Assembly: GCA_030432295.1 (NCBI GenBank)
Contig: JAUIHI010000016.1
Span: 1 to 64,000, forward strand
Direction: 5' to 3'
DNA: 64,000 bases
Source of the DNA: Anaerolineae bacterium
Lineage (GTDB): Bacteria > Chloroflexota > Anaerolineae > Caldilineales > Caldilineaceae
Positions 6,541 to 24,822 of the stretch are shown piece after piece. Both the position numbers and the translations under genes were made by a program. Position 1 is the stretch's first letter, and every line of letters begins with the position of its first letter. Below the pieces are notes generated by a model that saw nothing but the letters and a program-made list of their open reading frames with translations, searched no databases and had not been told where the DNA came from.

Positions 6541-7410
6541 ATGGCATTTGGCACAGGCAAGTACACCTACGAAGTAGTCGAAGGCTGGGGCAAATTGCCC
6601 GACGGCTGGGAATGGGGCTGGATTCCCGGCGTGGGCTGCGACTCGCAAGATCGGGTCTACGTCTACTCCCGCAGCGCCCACCCGCTGGTCATCTTCGACC
6701 GGGAGGGCAACTTTGTCGATTCCTGGGGCGAGGGGATTATCCAAGACGCCCACGGCATTTGGATCGACCCGGAGGACAACGTCTGGTGTGTGGAGCGGGA
6801 CACCCATTGCATCTTCAAATTCAACAACCGGGGCGAGCTGGTACAGACAATCGGCACGCCGGGTGTGGCTGGCGCGCCGGGCGAACCCTTCCGCAAGCCG
6901 ACGGATCTGGCGATCTCTGCCGACGGTTCACTCTTTATCTCCGACGGCTATGAGAATGCCCGGGTTCACAAATACACGCCCGAGGGCGAGCACATTCTCT
7001 CCTGGGGGGAATACGGAGCTGGACCGGGACAGTTCGAGCTATCCCACTGCGTACGCATCGACCGCTTCGACCGGGTGTGGGTCTGTGACCGCACCAACGA
7101 CCGCATTCAGATTTTCGACACGGATGGCAAGTATTTGGAGGAGCGCACGGGGCTACTCAAGCCGGACACGATTTTCTTTGATCCCAACGAAGATGTGGTC
7201 TATGTGGCGGAATTAGAGCAGCAGGTGAGCGTCTGGACGTTGGACGGAGAGTTGTTGTCCAAGTGGGGCGGCGCACAGCCGAGCGATAAGCCCGGCGAAT
7301 TCGCCTACTGTCCCCACGGCATCTGGGCCGACAGCCGGGGTGATCTTTATGTGGGGCAGGTGCAGGGAGACGCGGGGTTGCAGAAGTTTGCGCGGGTGGG
7401 GCAAGTGTAG
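6541..7410 (+). CDS. NHL-repeat beta-propeller protein
   Basis: This 289-residue protein is made of repeated blades with patterns such as DAHGIWIDPEDNVW, PTDLAISADGSLF and CVRIDRFDRVWVCD, typical of six-bladed NHL or peptidylglycine-amidating-lyase-like propellers. There is no signal peptide, so a cytoplasmic location is inferred. Such proteins are often hydrolases or lyases on small cyclic substrates. It starts three bases after the dehydrogenase stop and is very likely translationally coupled to it. The actual reaction cannot be named from the sequence. Confidence 0.8.
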   Translation: MAFGTGKYTYEVVEGWGKLPDGWEWGWIPGVGCDSQDRVYVYSRSAHPLVIFDREGNFVDSWGEGIIQDAHGIWIDPEDNVWCVERDTHCIFKFNNRGELVQTIGTPGVAGAPGEPFRKPTDLAISADGSLFISDGYENARVHKYTPEGEHILSWGEYGAGPGQFELSHCVRIDRFDRVWVCDRTNDRIQIFDTDGKYLEERTGLLKPDTIFFDPNEDVVYVAELEQQVSVWTLDGELLSKWGGAQPSDKPGEFAYCPHGIWADSRGDLYVGQVQGDAGLQKFARVGQV

Positions 7411-7423
7411 TGGAGACGAAATC

Positions 7424-7457
7424 AGAAGTTCGACTTTTTCTAAAAAGTCGAACTTCT
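7424..7457. terminator. Perfect 16-bp hairpin between convergent genes
   Basis: Arms 7424-7439 and 7442-7457 are perfect complements with a 2-base centre and A/T-rich inner ends. It lies between the convergent NHL and chemoreceptor genes and could end transcription both ways. A near-identical hairpin occurs at 50177-50210 upstream of hsdM, so it is also a dispersed repeat. Confidence 0.5.
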
Positions 7458-7459
7458 CC

Positions 7460-9241
7460 TTACTCGTGCCCATTGCGGTGAATGCCGTTGCCTCCGACCG
7501 CCGGGTAGTTGTGTCCATTTGTGGATTGTAGAGCGGGCATCCATTCTGCCTGGGGGTGTGGTTCGGGCGAATAGGCCAGGATCGGCGTAGCAATGGCAGG
7601 CTCTTCTTCGCCATCGCTATGCAGTATGTATTGGCCTATCAGTTCGCTCAGATCGTTTGCCATCTCTCGCAGTGTGTGGGCCGTCGAGGCTGCCAGTTTG
7701 TCGTGGCTGCCCACATCCGCGGTGGACGCGGCCACCTGCTCCGCGGCTGCGCTGTTCTCCTCGGCAATGGCGGAGAGTTCTTCGATGGCCCGCAACAGTC
7801 CGTCGCTGCCGTCGGCCAGTCCCCGGCTGGCGAGGGTGTTCTCTTCGCCAATCGTAGAGACCCGTTGCATGACGGAGAGCAGTGTCTGGTTGCCGTTTGA
7901 GATGGCCGATACCGCGTCGCCCAGACCAGTCATCCGTTTCTCCACATCGGTCACAGCCCGCTGAATCTGGTCCAGACTGCTTTGGGTCTCGTCGGCAGTG
8001 CCCAGGCCCTGCTCCATCTCCCGGTTGCTCTGTTCCATCGCGGCCACGGCCTGGGTGGCCGTCTCCTGCACAGCGTTGATGAGGCTGCCGATCTCCTTGG
8101 CCGATTTGGCAGATCGCTCGGCCAGTTTGCGCACTTCATCCGCCACCACCGCAAAGCCCCGGCCCTGTTCGCCGGCCCGGGCTGCTTCGATGGCTGCATT
8201 CAGGGCCAGCAGATTGGTGCGCTCGGCAATTTCGTCAATCGTTTGCACAATCGCTACAATCTGTTGGGATCGATGGCCCATCTCTACCACCCGCCCAGAA
8301 ACCTGCTCCATAGCACCGGCCATAGCCCGGATGCGGTCGATGGTTTTGCCGACTGCTGCGACCCCCTGTTGGGCGACTTCACCAGCGCCGTAGGCTGCCT
8401 GGCGGCTGGCGTCCAGGCTTTCGCTGACCTGATGCATGGCAACGCCCACCTGATTGGAGAGAACATTTTCTGCTTCTGCCACGGCTTTGCTTTGATGGGT
8501 CGCTCCTTGGGCGATTGTATCGACGGACTTGACCTGAATTTCGATCAGATCACGAATTTGTGCGATGTATTCGGTTTGCAGAACAGTGCTTTTGGCCACC
8601 TGTGTAATTGTGCCGGTAATCTGCTGGGTGGCCTGTTCGCTGTGTTCCGAGGCGAAAAGAACCTGCTGGCTGGCGACAGAGACATCCCGAATACTCCGCT
8701 GCATACGCAAAATCAATTGCCGCTGGGCATCCAGCATCCAGGCAAAAGATTCGGACAACTGGTCGTCGGGAGAGCGTTTGCGGACGTCCATAGAGAGATC
8801 GCCTTCGGTCATCCGCAGGGCCAGATCGGTGAGTTCGACCTGATAGTCGATCCAGGCCTGGATCGACTGGGCAAGTTGCCCCAGTTCGTTCTTACCGATT
8901 GCAGGGATCGTTGGGTTGGGATTTCCCCCAGCCATTGCATCAGCCACCGCCGTGAGTTGGGAGATGGGATCGACAAATTTGCGTTTGAGCGCTATCGTAA
9001 TCGAGGTAGTGCAGACTGTGATGATCGCGGCTCCGATGAGAATCGACGGCCACGAGATGCCAATCCGACCCACTGAAAAAGCGACAATACAGGTCACGTT
9101 TCCCGTCACAAAGACGGCCAATATGCCCCACATAACGAGTCCTTCGCCCCAGATACGACGGAATATCCAAAGTGCGATTGGGGATACAACGACGCAGAGG
9201 CCGATGACGATAGAGATGTCTCTTATAATTGTTTGATCCAA
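7460..9241 (-). CDS. Methyl-accepting chemotaxis protein
   Basis: A membrane chemoreceptor that signals to CheA through a long cytoplasmic coiled coil. Three or four hydrophobic helices occupy the first ~110 residues with little extracytoplasmic domain, so the sensed signal may be membrane- or cytoplasm-derived. A HAMP-like segment follows, then the signalling tip ([18 protein letters not shown] and [18 protein letters not shown]). I chose a TTG start at 9241, preceded by GGAG seven bases upstream and directly before the first TM helix. A longer frame to an ATG at 9394 adds 51 atypical residues without a clear ribosome site. No other che gene is in the window. Confidence 0.88.
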
Positions 9242-19848: not shown

Positions 19849-20178
19849 TGTCTACTGTCTTTTCTCATCTATTGTCATTCGCCAAGCAATTGTACAAAAA
19901 GGAACAATGGATGTCAAAACCTTCGGCAATAGCAGATTGCATTATGCAGAATTTGCCGGTATAGTATGCGTATAGTCAAAAGTGCTACACGCAATCGGCC
20001 AGCCATCCAACTGGGCCGGGGACAACGACGAACATCATCGGGACGAACGTCATCGGCACCCATCGCCGACACCCACTATCAACACCGGCAACTGTTTAGC
20101 AGTCGTGAGTGTACACGATTCAATGCAACAATACAACTATCACCCTCCTTCCCTGTTGCCCCCGAAAGGAGCATCACA
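19849..20178. other. Divergent intergenic region with promoter
   Basis: This 330-bp gap separates the leftward oxidase cluster and the rightward recombinase-like gene. A short frame running into the recombinase from upstream is not conserved in style. Apart from the promoter match at 19937-19965 and the AAAGGAG ribosome site at 20165-20171, nothing else stands out. Confidence 0.5.
19937..19965 (+). promoter_or_regulatory. Putative sigma-70 promoter
   Basis: TTGCAT (19937-19942) and TATAGT (19960-19965) are spaced by 17 bases, facing the recombinase-like gene. If used, the 5' leader would be about 205 bases long. Confidence 0.4.
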
Positions 20179-21117
20179 ATGAGTGAATCGACGACTGCTA
20201 CTGCTGGTGTGGAGATCGATCCGGCCACAGCAGCCGTACCTGCGCTGCGGGGCAATAGCCTCCTCGGCGCTGCTGTGGCTGAGTTCGAGGAACATATGGT
20301 GCGCAAAGGTTTCAGCGATAACACCATCAAAGCCTTTCGCAACGATCTGAAAATTCTGCGGGTCTTTATGGATGACGGCGCTGTGCTGCGGGAGATCACC
20401 AACGATCACCTGACCGAGTTTCTGCAATGGATGCAGAGCGAACGGGGACGCCCGTGCAGCGCCAAAACATTGGCCCGGCGCATCACCACCCTGAAGGTCT
20501 TTTTTAGCTGGCTGCACGATACAGGCGTCATCGCCAACGACCCGGCCCAGGAGATTGTCCAATTCTCTGTGCGCACGCCCCTACCCACCATCCTGACCAA
20601 AGACGAAGTAGACAGGCTGATCCTGGCCTGCCAGGACTGGGATCGGGATCGGGACAAGCCCGACGCCCGGCCCTATCTGCTGGTCAGCCTGCTGCTGCAA
20701 ACCGGGATGAAGAAGAGCGAATGTGCCAAATTGCTGATCGAAGAGATCGACCGCAGCCAGCCCCATTCGCCCGAAGTGCTGATCCGCTACGACGATCCCC
20801 GCTACAGCCACAAGACCCGTCGTCTGCCCCTGCACCCCAGCATACTGCAACCCCTGGACCGCTATCTGGCCCAATACAAGCCGGAGCGTTTTCTCTTCGA
20901 CTGCACGCCCCGTAATCTGGAATATGTGCTGGACGAAGCAGGCAAGCGGGCCAAAATCCGGCGCACCCAAGTGGGATTCGAGACCCTGCGCTGGACGAGC
21001 GCTGTGCGGGACTATAAGACCGGTATGAAAGAGGAACAATTGCGTCAGAAGATGGGATTGAGCAAAGTCTCCTGGCGGGAGACCAGCGACAAGATTCAGC
21101 GGCTGGCGGGTCAATAA
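20179..21117 (+). CDS. Tyrosine-recombinase homologue lacking catalytic residues
   Basis: The 312-residue protein has the phage-integrase layout: a SAM-like core-binding domain (about 28-125) and a catalytic-fold domain (about 135-308). Aligning by eye to XerC/D-type enzymes, the first catalytic Arg is K178 (TGMKKSE), the H-x-x-R-H box reads E-T-L-R-W (268-272, only R271 kept), and the nucleophilic Tyr position is S303. No tyrosine occurs after residue 279. The lysine region HKTRRLPLH is retained. It therefore probably binds DNA but cannot cleave it. The ATG at 20179 has a good AAAGGAG site; the ~70 codons open upstream are unsupported. Confidence 0.8.
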   Translation: MSESTTATAGVEIDPATAAVPALRGNSLLGAAVAEFEEHMVRKGFSDNTIKAFRNDLKILRVFMDDGAVLREITNDHLTEFLQWMQSERGRPCSAKTLARRITTLKVFFSWLHDTGVIANDPAQEIVQFSVRTPLPTILTKDEVDRLILACQDWDRDRDKPDARPYLLVSLLLQTGMKKSECAKLLIEEIDRSQPHSPEVLIRYDDPRYSHKTRRLPLHPSILQPLDRYLAQYKPERFLFDCTPRNLEYVLDEAGKRAKIRRTQVGFETLRWTSAVRDYKTGMKEEQLRQKMGLSKVSWRETSDKIQRLAGQ

Positions 21118-21216: not shown

Positions 21217-23181
21217 ATGTCTATGCGACTACCTAAACCACGTGTGCCCAATAATTGGGCGCTTCTATTGCTTATCGTCACCACTGTTCTGCTGGGGACC
21301 CAATTGCTGCGCGCCAACCTCTCCTATTTCCGTTGGCTCTTCGGCGACCGTTTCGGCTGGTCATCCCTTGCCTTGGGCGGGCTGGCATTGGCTCTCTACT
21401 CCCTCCCGATTCTGATCGGTCCCTTTTTACGCCGGATGGGAACCCGCCCCCTCCTCATCCGCACGGCCTTTCTGGTGGGGGCGACCCGTCTGCTGGCCCA
21501 GATGTGGTGGGGCGATCCGCTGGTGGATGCCATCTTCGTTTTTGTCGGTATGCTGGCCTTTTTGATCTTCCTGCCTGTGGCCCTGGGCTGGCTGGTGGGG
21601 GATCGCATCCACAAACCGGAAGCTGGCTGGCATTTTGCCCTGCTTCTCCTCTCCGGCCTGGCGATGGACAGTGCGATTCACAGCCTTTTCCTCACCTACG
21701 ATCCCATCTGGCAGAATACCTGGTATGGCTTTGGTGTCGTGCTGCTGCTGGTGGGCGGACAGTGGGGTCTGTTGCGGGTGATTGTCCGCCGTGTGGCTGT
21801 GCCCCTGCCCTTTCGGGAAGCCTCTGGCCGCAACTCCCTGCCCCTGCTTCTCTTTGGCCCCTTCTTTGTCTACTATCTGATTGTGGGGGGCAATCTGGCT
21901 CGGCTCAACGCATTGACTGGCTGGCCCCTGCCTCTCAGCATCTTCTGGCTGCTGGGGGGACTCTTTGCGGCTGTTCTGCTGGCCTGGCTGTTGCCGCCAG
22001 GCCGGGCTGTGGCGCTTGTCGCCTTTGTGCTGCTGATGACAACCATCAATCCGCCGACCCTTTCCCCGGTCGCGTCGGCCCTCTCGCTTCTGGTCAGCCA
22101 GATCAGCGCGGGGCTGCTGCTCACGACCGCTTGCACCCATCTGGCCCGCTATCGCAGCCGGGTGGGCGTGAGCCACACGGCCTGGCTCTGGTGGGGTTCC
22201 CAGATGCTTTTTGTGCTGCTGATTTTCCTCTATTACGTCAGCTACGATATTCGATTGCCTATCAGCCGGGAATTTATTCTCTATTTGGCTGTCGTGGGTA
22301 TGGGGGGCGGCGCACTTTTTGTCAGCGACCGATGGGCTTCATCCACTCACTTGCGGCCAGCCCTGGACCATTTGGGGTTGCCCTCTTTGCATAGCCTGGC
22401 CCTGGCTCTGGCTCTGGTGTTGGGCCTGACGACTGTCATCTGGCAACAGCCCGCGGTCGCCAGCGCCCAGTCCGATACCCTACGGCTCTTCAACTATAAT
22501 GTGCACAACGGTTTTTCTATGCAGGGGACCCTCGATCTGGAGGGAATGGCCCGGCTGATCGAGAGCCAGCACGCGGATATTCTCACCCTGCAGGAGGTGG
22601 GGCGGGGATGGGTGGTGAATGGGTCCGTGGATATGGTTGTCTGGCTCTCCTGGCGGTTGGGTATGAAAGCCACCTTCACTTCCACATCCGGGCTGGATTG
22701 GGGCCACGCGCTACTCACCCGTTTCCCGGTGATCCGCCACGACGAGTTTGCCCTGCCGCCCCCTGGCCTGCCCCTGAGCCGGGGCTTCGCCTATCACGAG
22801 ATCGATGTGGGAGACGGGCAGTCTCTGCTGCTTATCAACACCCATCTCCATCATCTCTCCATCGACGCCACCATCCGGGAGCAGCAGGTTGCCAGCATTC
22901 TGCACTTTCTCGATGGCAACCCCATGCGCAGGCTGATTCTTACGGGCGATCTGAATTCGCAACCGATGGAGCCTGTCCTGCTCAGTCTGGGCGCGGTGGG
23001 CTTGCGCGACCTGATCGCAGAAGCGGGTCTGCAACCGGGCTTCACCTTCCCCGCGGACGCACCCACCCGGCGCATCGACTATATCCTCGCTTCGCCCGAT
23101 GTCGGATTGCGTGAATTGGCCATTCCGCCCGATGCGATTTCTGATCATTTGGGCATCAGCGCGACGATTCTGCTGCGGTAG
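21217..23181 (+). CDS. Polytopic membrane protein with C-terminal EEP domain
   Basis: The N-terminal ~400 residues of this 654-residue protein form about ten to twelve TM helices. The C-terminal ~230 residues are an endonuclease/exonuclease/phosphatase domain with its usual motifs: FNYNVHNGF, LTLQEVG, INTHLHH, TGDLNSQP, RRIDYIL and SDHLGI. Metal-dependent phosphoester hydrolysis is expected; the substrate may be a lipid, sugar-phosphate or nucleic acid. The N-terminal part has transporter-like features (LRRMGTRPLLIRTAFLVG). The positive-inside cue is too weak to place the EEP domain inside or outside. It is 99 bp after the recombinase-like gene in the same direction. Confidence 0.8.
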   Translation: MSMRLPKPRVPNNWALLLLIVTTVLLGTQLLRANLSYFRWLFGDRFGWSSLALGGLALALYSLPILIGPFLRRMGTRPLLIRTAFLVGATRLLAQMWWGDPLVDAIFVFVGMLAFLIFLPVALGWLVGDRIHKPEAGWHFALLLLSGLAMDSAIHSLFLTYDPIWQNTWYGFGVVLLLVGGQWGLLRVIVRRVAVPLPFREASGRNSLPLLLFGPFFVYYLIVGGNLARLNALTGWPLPLSIFWLLGGLFAAVLLAWLLPPGRAVALVAFVLLMTTINPPTLSPVASALSLLVSQISAGLLLTTACTHLARYRSRVGVSHTAWLWWGSQMLFVLLIFLYYVSYDIRLPISREFILYLAVVGMGGGALFVSDRWASSTHLRPALDHLGLPSLHSLALALALVLGLTTVIWQQPAVASAQSDTLRLFNYNVHNGFSMQGTLDLEGMARLIESQHADILTLQEVGRGWVVNGSVDMVVWLSWRLGMKATFTSTSGLDWGHALLTRFPVIRHDEFALPPPGLPLSRGFAYHEIDVGDGQSLLLINTHLHHLSIDATIREQQVASILHFLDGNPMRRLILTGDLNSQPMEPVLLSLGAVGLRDLIAEAGLQPGFTFPADAPTRRIDYILASPDVGLRELAIPPDAISDHLGISATILLR

Positions 23182-23301: not shown

Positions 23302-24774
23302 TTATTCGGGAGGGGCGTCGGGTGTACCGCCGTCCTTTGTTGTGTTGGGGAAAAAGGTGCGGAAGGAGCTTTGGTAGCGGAGATGGACATCCAGATAGCT
23401 GCCTGACCAGCCGCCGACCAGATAGAGTTGGCCGAGGGAGCTGGCCGCGCCGCCCAAATGGCGCCATTCGCCCTGAATCGGTGCCGGGAAATTGCTCCAC
23501 AGCCCGGTGGCCGGGTCGAAGCGTTCGATAGTATCTACCTGATGGCTCCAGCCGCCACCCACAGCAAAAAGAGCCAGCCCATCGTAGAGCAACGAGACCC
23601 CGCCCCGGGGGTCTGCCAGATCGGGCAAGGCCCGCCACTCCCCAGTCTGGGTACTGTAGACAGCCGCGTCGGCCAGTTCCTGTCTGCCATCGTAGCCGCC
23701 CACCACATAGAGATCGTCGGCTATCACCGCGCTACCTGCGAATGCCCGCGCTCTGGGCAGGCGGCTGACTACCTGCCAATCGGTGGGTGCAACATCTGGG
23801 CTGCTCTGCGCGGGGATGCGCCAGACCTCATCGTGCATGGCCTGGCCGTCCCAGCCGCCCAGCAGATAGAGGCCATCGCCCACCAGTTGCAGGGACGCGC
23901 CGGCCAGGGGCGCGGGCAGACGTCCCCATTCGCTCCAGCGCTGGCTGGCGGGGGTAAAAACAAACAGCCGATCGCTCAGTATCTCCCCGTCTTCTCCGTC
24001 GGCCATATTTCCGCCAGCCAGCAGAATGCGGGTAGCGTCGGCTGTGGTGGCCGCGTTTGCCAAAGCCACCGGCAGAGGCACACCGCTTGCCCACTCATTG
24101 ATACGCAGATCGTAGACATCCACCCCGGCCAAGGGCTGCCCCTGGGCCGATTCGCCGCCAATCGCATAGAGAAAAGTATCGTTGAAGGCGACCAGTGCCA
24201 GACGGCTGCGGGCTGTGGCCAGGGGTGTGCGGGATTCCCAGCGGGGCATCTCCGCGATCACCGGGCGGCCCACTGCCAGCACAGTGCCATCGCTGAGCAG
24301 ATTGACGACCGACTGGGCCGGGCGGGTGAAGAAGGGTGTGACCAGAATCCCCAGGCTCAGGAGTAAGACGCCAAGAAGATAGAGGGGCTGCCAGCGGAAT
24401 GGCAGTCCAGACGAGGCTTCCAACGGTTCCGGGTCTGGCAGGGGTTCTTCCTCAGCAGCCCCTCCGCCGGTCTCCACCCCCGGCACATAAATCCAGCCCT
24501 GGCTGACAAGCAGCATAGAGGCTTCGGTGCGGCTGTTCACGCCCAGCTTTTCGTAGATATTGCGCAGGTGAACTTTGACAGTGTGGGGGCTGATGATCAG
24601 TTCCGACGCGATCTCTCCGTTGCTGGCTCCGGTTGCCAGCAGCCGGGCCACATCCATTTCCCGTTCGCTCAATGGGTTTTCGGCCAGGCCAGAAGAGGAC
24701 GTATCCCCAGCCGTGGCTATGGGCGGTTCCGCGGTGGCGGGGATAGAGGGAGCAAGCGTTGTTTGCCGATTCAT
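23302..24774 (-). CDS. LuxR-type regulator fused to TM helix and kelch propeller
   Basis: The 490-residue protein begins with a LuxR/NarL DNA-binding domain (about residues 35-95; LSEREMDVARLLATGASNGE and SPHTVKVHLRNIYEKLGV). An acidic linker and a single TM helix (YLLGVLLLSLGILVTPFF) follow. The C-terminal ~320 residues are kelch repeats with recurring LYLLGGWDG, LYVVGGYDG and LFAVGGGW blades. This places the DNA-binding domain inside and the propeller outside, like ToxR-type one-component regulators but with a different domain pair. The ATG at 24774 is preferred because the 16 residues before it overlap the upstream regulator. Likely co-transcribed with that regulator, 48 bp away. Confidence 0.85.
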   Translation of the reverse strand: MNRQTTLAPSIPATAEPPIATAGDTSSSGLAENPLSEREMDVARLLATGASNGEIASELIISPHTVKVHLRNIYEKLGVNSRTEASMLLVSQGWIYVPGVETGGGAAEEEPLPDPEPLEASSGLPFRWQPLYLLGVLLLSLGILVTPFFTRPAQSVVNLLSDGTVLAVGRPVIAEMPRWESRTPLATARSRLALVAFNDTFLYAIGGESAQGQPLAGVDVYDLRINEWASGVPLPVALANAATTADATRILLAGGNMADGEDGEILSDRLFVFTPASQRWSEWGRLPAPLAGASLQLVGDGLYLLGGWDGQAMHDEVWRIPAQSSPDVAPTDWQVVSRLPRARAFAGSAVIADDLYVVGGYDGRQELADAAVYSTQTGEWRALPDLADPRGGVSLLYDGLALFAVGGGWSHQVDTIERFDPATGLWSNFPAPIQGEWRHLGGAASSLGQLYLVGGWSGSYLDVHLRYQSSFRTFFPNTTKDGGTPDAPPE

Positions 24775-24822
24775 CCCTCTATTATTCCACAGAAAATGGA
24801 CGGAATACAAACAGGGGGGCAA

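Follow-up and report, generated by a model that had tools for sequence, protein, structure and literature searches.

A class-wide Xer-like protein of Chloroflexota without recombinase catalytic residues, a candidate autorepressor with an operator-like motif at its own promoter

Why would a bacterium keep an intact gene for a tyrosine recombinase that appears unable to cut DNA? The question is raised by a locus in the window, the whole stretch of 64,000 nucleotides analysed here (Anaerolineae bacterium, family Caldilineaceae, contig JAUIHI010000016.1, positions 1 to 64,000). An earlier note, made from the letters alone, had described an intact frame with a good ribosome site, judged four of six catalytic residues to be missing from its product, and proposed that selection had kept the protein for binding DNA and not for recombination. 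The frame is indeed open from an ATG start over 312 residues, and a ribosome-binding site precedes it:

20179 to 21117, + strand: dead tyrosine-recombinase homologue gene, 312 aa (ORF, Pfam, relatives, alignment)
20165 to 20171, + strand: its ribosome-binding site, AAAGGAG (sequence)
20263 to 20523, + strand: core-binding (SAM-like) domain, residues 29-115 (Pfam, model)
20578 to 21114, + strand: catalytic-type domain without catalytic residues, residues 134-312 (Pfam, model, alignment)

Both Phage_int_SAM_1 (3e-12) and Phage_integrase (8e-8) match the protein above their Pfam cut-offs, and these matches, together with the structural ones described at the end, place it by fold and descent in the tyrosine recombinase superfamily. 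Residues K96, R100, R101 and T103 in the last helix of the core-binding domain are invariant. The C-terminal tail that follows the GH/GL motif is about 21 residues long, where most active Xer controls have about 30.

The catalytic columns were read from an alignment of 125 distinct class orthologues, the window protein included, with 20 canonical Xer proteins of the same class. The altered positions in the window (all from the alignment) are:

20710 to 20715, + strand: K178-K179, Arg-I replaced by Lys
20980 to 20994, + strand: E268-x-x-R271-W272, His-II lost, Arg-II kept, next His replaced by Trp
21058 to 21060, + strand: L294, His/Trp-III lost
21085 to 21087, + strand: S303, nucleophile Tyr lost

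All 20 controls carry the full R, H, R, H, Y series. Among the orthologues, Arg-I, His-II, His-III and Tyr each score 0/125: K178 is found in 125/125 and K179 in 124/125, the His-II column (E268) contains E in 101 and D in 19 but never H, the His-III column (L294) is occupied by L, V or I, and the Tyr column (S303), most commonly S, F, R, L, G, V, E or H (118/125), is never Y. Arg-II (R271, 125/125) is all that the window protein retains of the R-K-H-R-H/W-Y set of active enzymes; it also keeps the acidic residue E181, as Xer recombinases do. The beta-hairpin Lys column (Y209 in the window protein) varies between Y, M, N, H and R in the class, next to a conserved K212. Since this column is unconserved as well, the count of four losses in six is a lower bound. 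Three of the four losses first noted, at K178, E268 and S303, hold; W272, taken for the third His, stands in place of the second His of HxxRH, which is conserved but not catalytic; the third His proper belongs to the GH motif, and at that position (L294) it is lost too. The window protein has no Tyr after residue 279, just as had been noted. Being fixed in 125/125 distinct orthologues, the losses lie far beyond chance.

One could envision an unusual active enzyme in which another residue, for instance Y249 or Y229, serves as nucleophile. These are the only tyrosines conserved in both groups A and B of the family (groups described below), and within the class they are kept in 124/125 and 122/125 sequences, respectively, R271 and K178 being conserved likewise. 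However, Arg-I and both catalytic His are absent from these proteins. Moreover, Y229 is a structural Tyr present in all 20 active controls without being their nucleophile, and Y249 falls in the helix before HxxR, at a position that is Leu in most controls. We regard such an enzyme as highly improbable; the alternative active site of different Tyr and Arg residues, which the earlier note had named as the finding that would overturn its reading, does not seem to exist.

Loss of catalytic residues is the one observation that speaks for a decaying integrase or prophage remnant. The gene behaves otherwise. Comparison with genus- and family-level relatives gives a dN/dS of 0.06-0.11, indicative of strong purifying selection. 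Of 61 relatives, 53 have a clear orthologue (170 bits or more), as a rule one per genome; in a phylum-wide sample it is present in 30 of the 31 class members. The homologue search proposed in the earlier note reveals replacement residues that are themselves fixed in the class: K178 (125/125), R245 (125/125) and W299 (120/125). The losses are shared by two more groups in the phylum: group B (12 loci in four other families), with K at Arg-I, Q at His-II and L at His-III, and the divergent group C. In a quick tree with some long branches, groups A and B form one branch (SH-aLRT 96), C adjoins it, and canonical Xer proteins occupy another (97). K96, R101, K178, K179, R245, Y249, K291 and W299 are fixed, or nearly so, in A and B and different in the controls; this near-complete fixation argues that the pocket was remodelled rather than eroded. 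Finally, no relatives of the dead family were found on viral contigs, and phages and plasmids carry distant integrases only, for which reasons a mobile-element origin was rejected. The family is a deep, mostly single-copy orthologous one and is not decaying; purifying selection and class-wide orthology refute the decay scenario, to which we attach next to no probability. A second, divergent copy, intermediate between groups A and B and with QVLRDT in place of FExLRWT, is present in one genome (G053, L073, about 6989-7900).

If the gene is not decaying, what is it kept for? The region upstream provides a clue:

19937 to 19965, + strand: promoter of the dead-recombinase gene, TTGCAT - 17 nt - TATAGT, conserved in the genus (aligned upstream regions)
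19967 to 19993, + strand: operator-like inverted repeat TGCGTATAG-N9-CTACACGCA, two copies of a class-wide motif, one base after the -10
19889 to 19917, - strand: divergent promoter of cytochrome oxidase genes, TTGACA-N17-TACAAT (neighbour, outside the unit)

The inverted repeat at 19967-19993 is the only perfect copy in the window's genome. Of 41 genomes, only three have exact matches; all three belong to the genus, and in each the match lies immediately upstream of the dead-recombinase gene. Cross-genus comparison revealed an element common to the upstream regions of several genera: CTATACGAA-type words rank at the top of unbiased k-mer counts, beside the -35 hexamer, and expectation maximisation (EM) yields the motif CTA(Y)(R)CG(A/c)A with a log-likelihood of 230, against 45-61 in shuffles. 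Upstream of the dead gene, 62 of the 87 class loci left after strict dereplication carry CTA(Y)(R)CG(A/C)A, a regular expression selected from the same data in which it was counted; shuffled sequences contain it in 1.45 loci on average (maximum 5), and canonical Xer genes in 1 case of 18. Its density upstream is 2.30 per kb, 46-fold the 0.050 per kb found in 1.09 Mb of flanking DNA. Seeds drawn from random halves of the data return the same words, and the fixed pattern recurs in 27-35 of the 55 regions of the other half. As to position, 54 of 61 forward sites lie within -2 to +22 nt of the point where a sigma-70-like -10 hexamer ends, a placement reached by 9% of random positions. The motif is a new DNA element that marks the dead gene's own promoter across the class. 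Most genomes have a single half-site. No copy was found upstream of the gene in 25 of the 87 class loci, nor in the upstream regions of group B (0/12) or group C (0/8). A supposed tie between residue 246 and motif loss was rejected: the search region had been too short, and the subclade has the motif once the region is extended. Two other features of this intergenic region were noted. The cytochrome oxidase promoter is near-consensus and strongly conserved in the genus, and an inverted repeat GCAAT-N5-ATTGC (19925-19941) covers the -35 of the dead-recombinase promoter in genus-level relatives only; as a class-wide element it was rejected, conservation stopping at the genus.

The genes on the other side offer no comparable constancy:

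21217 to 23181, + strand: multi-helix membrane protein with a C-terminal endonuclease/exonuclease/phosphatase domain (Pfam, neighbourhood comparison)
23302 to 24822, - strand: protein with LuxR-type DNA-binding domain, hydrophobic segment and Kelch propeller (neighbourhood comparison)

The membrane nuclease gene, to which the earlier note had drawn attention as following the recombinase homologue, is not among the neighbours conserved across the class and was rejected as a functional partner. The convergent LuxR-Kelch gene lies downstream in 9 families; its product looks like a membrane-bound transcription regulator. Other families have TilS downstream with LytR upstream, and group B has GH113 genes. 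Comparison of neighbourhoods between families disclosed no constant neighbour, and none of these candidates (LuxR-Kelch, TilS with LytR, GH113) was accepted as an operon partner.

In autorepression the usual arrangement is a site that lies across the transcription start and stays with one gene while its neighbours change. Because the motif has just this position and constancy, autorepression suggests itself, and the simplest reader of the site would be the gene's own product. We therefore favour, as the somewhat better than even choice, the view that an Xer-like recombinase became an autorepressor that binds DNA sequence-specifically, presumably with a few other targets. According to this model, a chromosomal Xer-like tyrosine recombinase would have lost strand cleavage early in Chloroflexota evolution and been retained to bind DNA at specific sequences, clamping it with the core-binding domain and the remodelled catalytic-type domain. 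The dead protein would bind CTA(Y)(R)CG(A/C)A half-sites at the transcription start of its own gene (in the window, two of them arranged as an inverted repeat) and thereby repress the promoter. It would presumably bind a few other chromosomal targets as well, as a regulator or an architectural protein. Three parts of this model are inferred: the dead protein as the reader of the site, repression as the effect of binding, and the existence of other targets. Still, an intact copy kept class-wide and a conserved site at its own transcription start make a DNA-binding control protein probable, and the notion of selection for putative DNA binding, not recombination, gains from the purifying selection, the fold, the fixed basic residues and the operator-like site.

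Some observations fit the autorepressor model less well. Recombinases usually bind paired arms, and the half-sites are mostly single; the motif is missing from 25 of 87 class loci, and groups B and C lack it throughout (20 loci). Another regulator could be the reader of the promoter site. The analysis turned up no second target, and a protein regulating only itself would be odd. If the site belonged to another regulator, the dead protein might be a nucleoid-associated or DNA-structure binder (of Holliday junctions, for example) devoid of sequence preference. Its basic character (pI 8.9) and its housekeeping-like distribution, near-universal and mostly single-copy in a stand-alone gene with variable neighbours, would suit such a role. 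However, the motif follows the dead gene whatever the neighbours and is unenriched in the 1.09 Mb of flanking DNA, which autoregulation accommodates better than an outside regulator does. A binder of this kind is in our estimation unlikely, if the least unlikely of the alternatives.

It is also conceivable that the protein is an accessory, architecture-only subunit that pairs with a catalytic Xer partner at a dif-like site. In favour are its Xer-like fold and relatives, and the promoter motif appears to resemble the reverse complement of the XerC arm of E. coli dif. Against this, no canonical Xer (NF001399, more than 200 bits) turned up in genera g1, g8 and g16, a result that depends on the score threshold and includes some incomplete genomes, and 18 of their 19 genomes have the dead protein; a Xer partner seems accordingly to be unneeded, which suggests that the dead protein is independent of one. 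Furthermore, the tail falls some 10 residues short of its length in most Xer controls, which in a Xer protein would mean a shorter helix for docking on the neighbouring subunit, and a search for a second chromosomal inverted-repeat site in 61 genomes returned only one, a dif-like repeat inside a transporter gene (G033) that was rejected as probably due to chance. We consider the accessory role a rather remote prospect, less probable still than the structure binder. A separate observation concerns the window's genus, in three genomes of which a second Xer-like protein also lacks the C-terminal HxxRH, GH and Tyr motifs (L035, 1129-1995, in the window's own genome G000:C49 at about 169.5-170.3 kb; L269, 109-969; L270, 96-1001). 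Given this lost catalytic end, the genus may, to judge from sequence, hold no active canonical Xer.

The autorepressor model can be drawn more broadly. It is about an even bet that we are dealing with a class-wide, essentially housekeeping regulator or chromosome organiser, derived from Xer, using Xer-like half-sites, autoregulated and independent of active Xer. Recombinase-fold repressors were previously known from single phages; the dead family is a chromosomal candidate for such a repressor, fixed in a large class and in two more of the phylum's groups. Since the operator-like sequence is concrete, the DNA target can be tested directly. The family also serves as a warning that Chloroflexota genes matching integrase models may not encode recombinases.

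How does this protein compare with known systems? Its best sequence matches in the PDB are XerD (1a0p) and XerA (5hxy), and the NCBIfam equivalog cut-offs lie far above its scores (96.9 vs 329.6 bits for XerD, 83.2 vs 335.2 for XerC). A side product of these comparisons is PDB 9i5v chain 14, a ribosome-associated chain of 401 aa named RaiA, which matches the recombinase profile (E 9e-11); this suggests a recombinase-like protein, a fusion or a naming error. The structure-based alignment that the earlier note had called for was made with an AlphaFold2 model of the window protein (53 sequences, pLDDT 90). Matches extending over 249-279 residues link the model to XerH, Tn1549 Int, lambda Int and Cre, with Z 17.5-20 for the first three; for XerH, VIA-align gives Z 20.4 and 3.6 A over 279 residues. 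With XerC, XerD and XerA the window protein shares the two-domain fold over its whole length, Arg-II and E181. Unlike them, the dead family is without Arg-I, His-II, His-III and Tyr in every class member, and has the shorter C-terminal tail. A parallel for K178 exists in the R225K mutant of Tn1549 Int, which likewise has Lys for Arg-I and is inactive, with cleavage blocked, yet was crystallised on DNA, which it still binds (PMC5871717); that protein, however, is a laboratory mutant of a transposon recombinase whose remaining catalytic residues are intact.

A further comparison is with phage repressors. MrpR (YopR), the master repressor of prophage SPbeta, is proven to repress by binding DNA; it has a recombinase fold but does not act as a recombinase, and its authors proposed that such repressors might be more widespread (PMC10516654). 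MrpR and SroF, the phi3T repressor, have the tyrosine-recombinase fold and match our model with Z 12.7-14.4, at a sequence identity of about 10-13%. The window protein resembles MrpR in combining this fold with an incomplete catalytic set, although the residues kept differ: MrpR retains Tyr and Lys and has lost others, whereas the window protein has lost Tyr and retains Arg-II. Sequence-specific binding to a repeated operator is a further trait of MrpR-type repressors; at the dead gene's own promoter there is a conserved operator-like motif, where binding is putative. The genetic setting is where the two part ways. MrpR and SroF are phage-encoded, MrpR being specific to prophage elements, and MrpR-type repressors of SPbeta-like phages control lysogeny; the dead family, in contrast, is chromosomal, class-wide, without viral relatives and linked to its own promoter.
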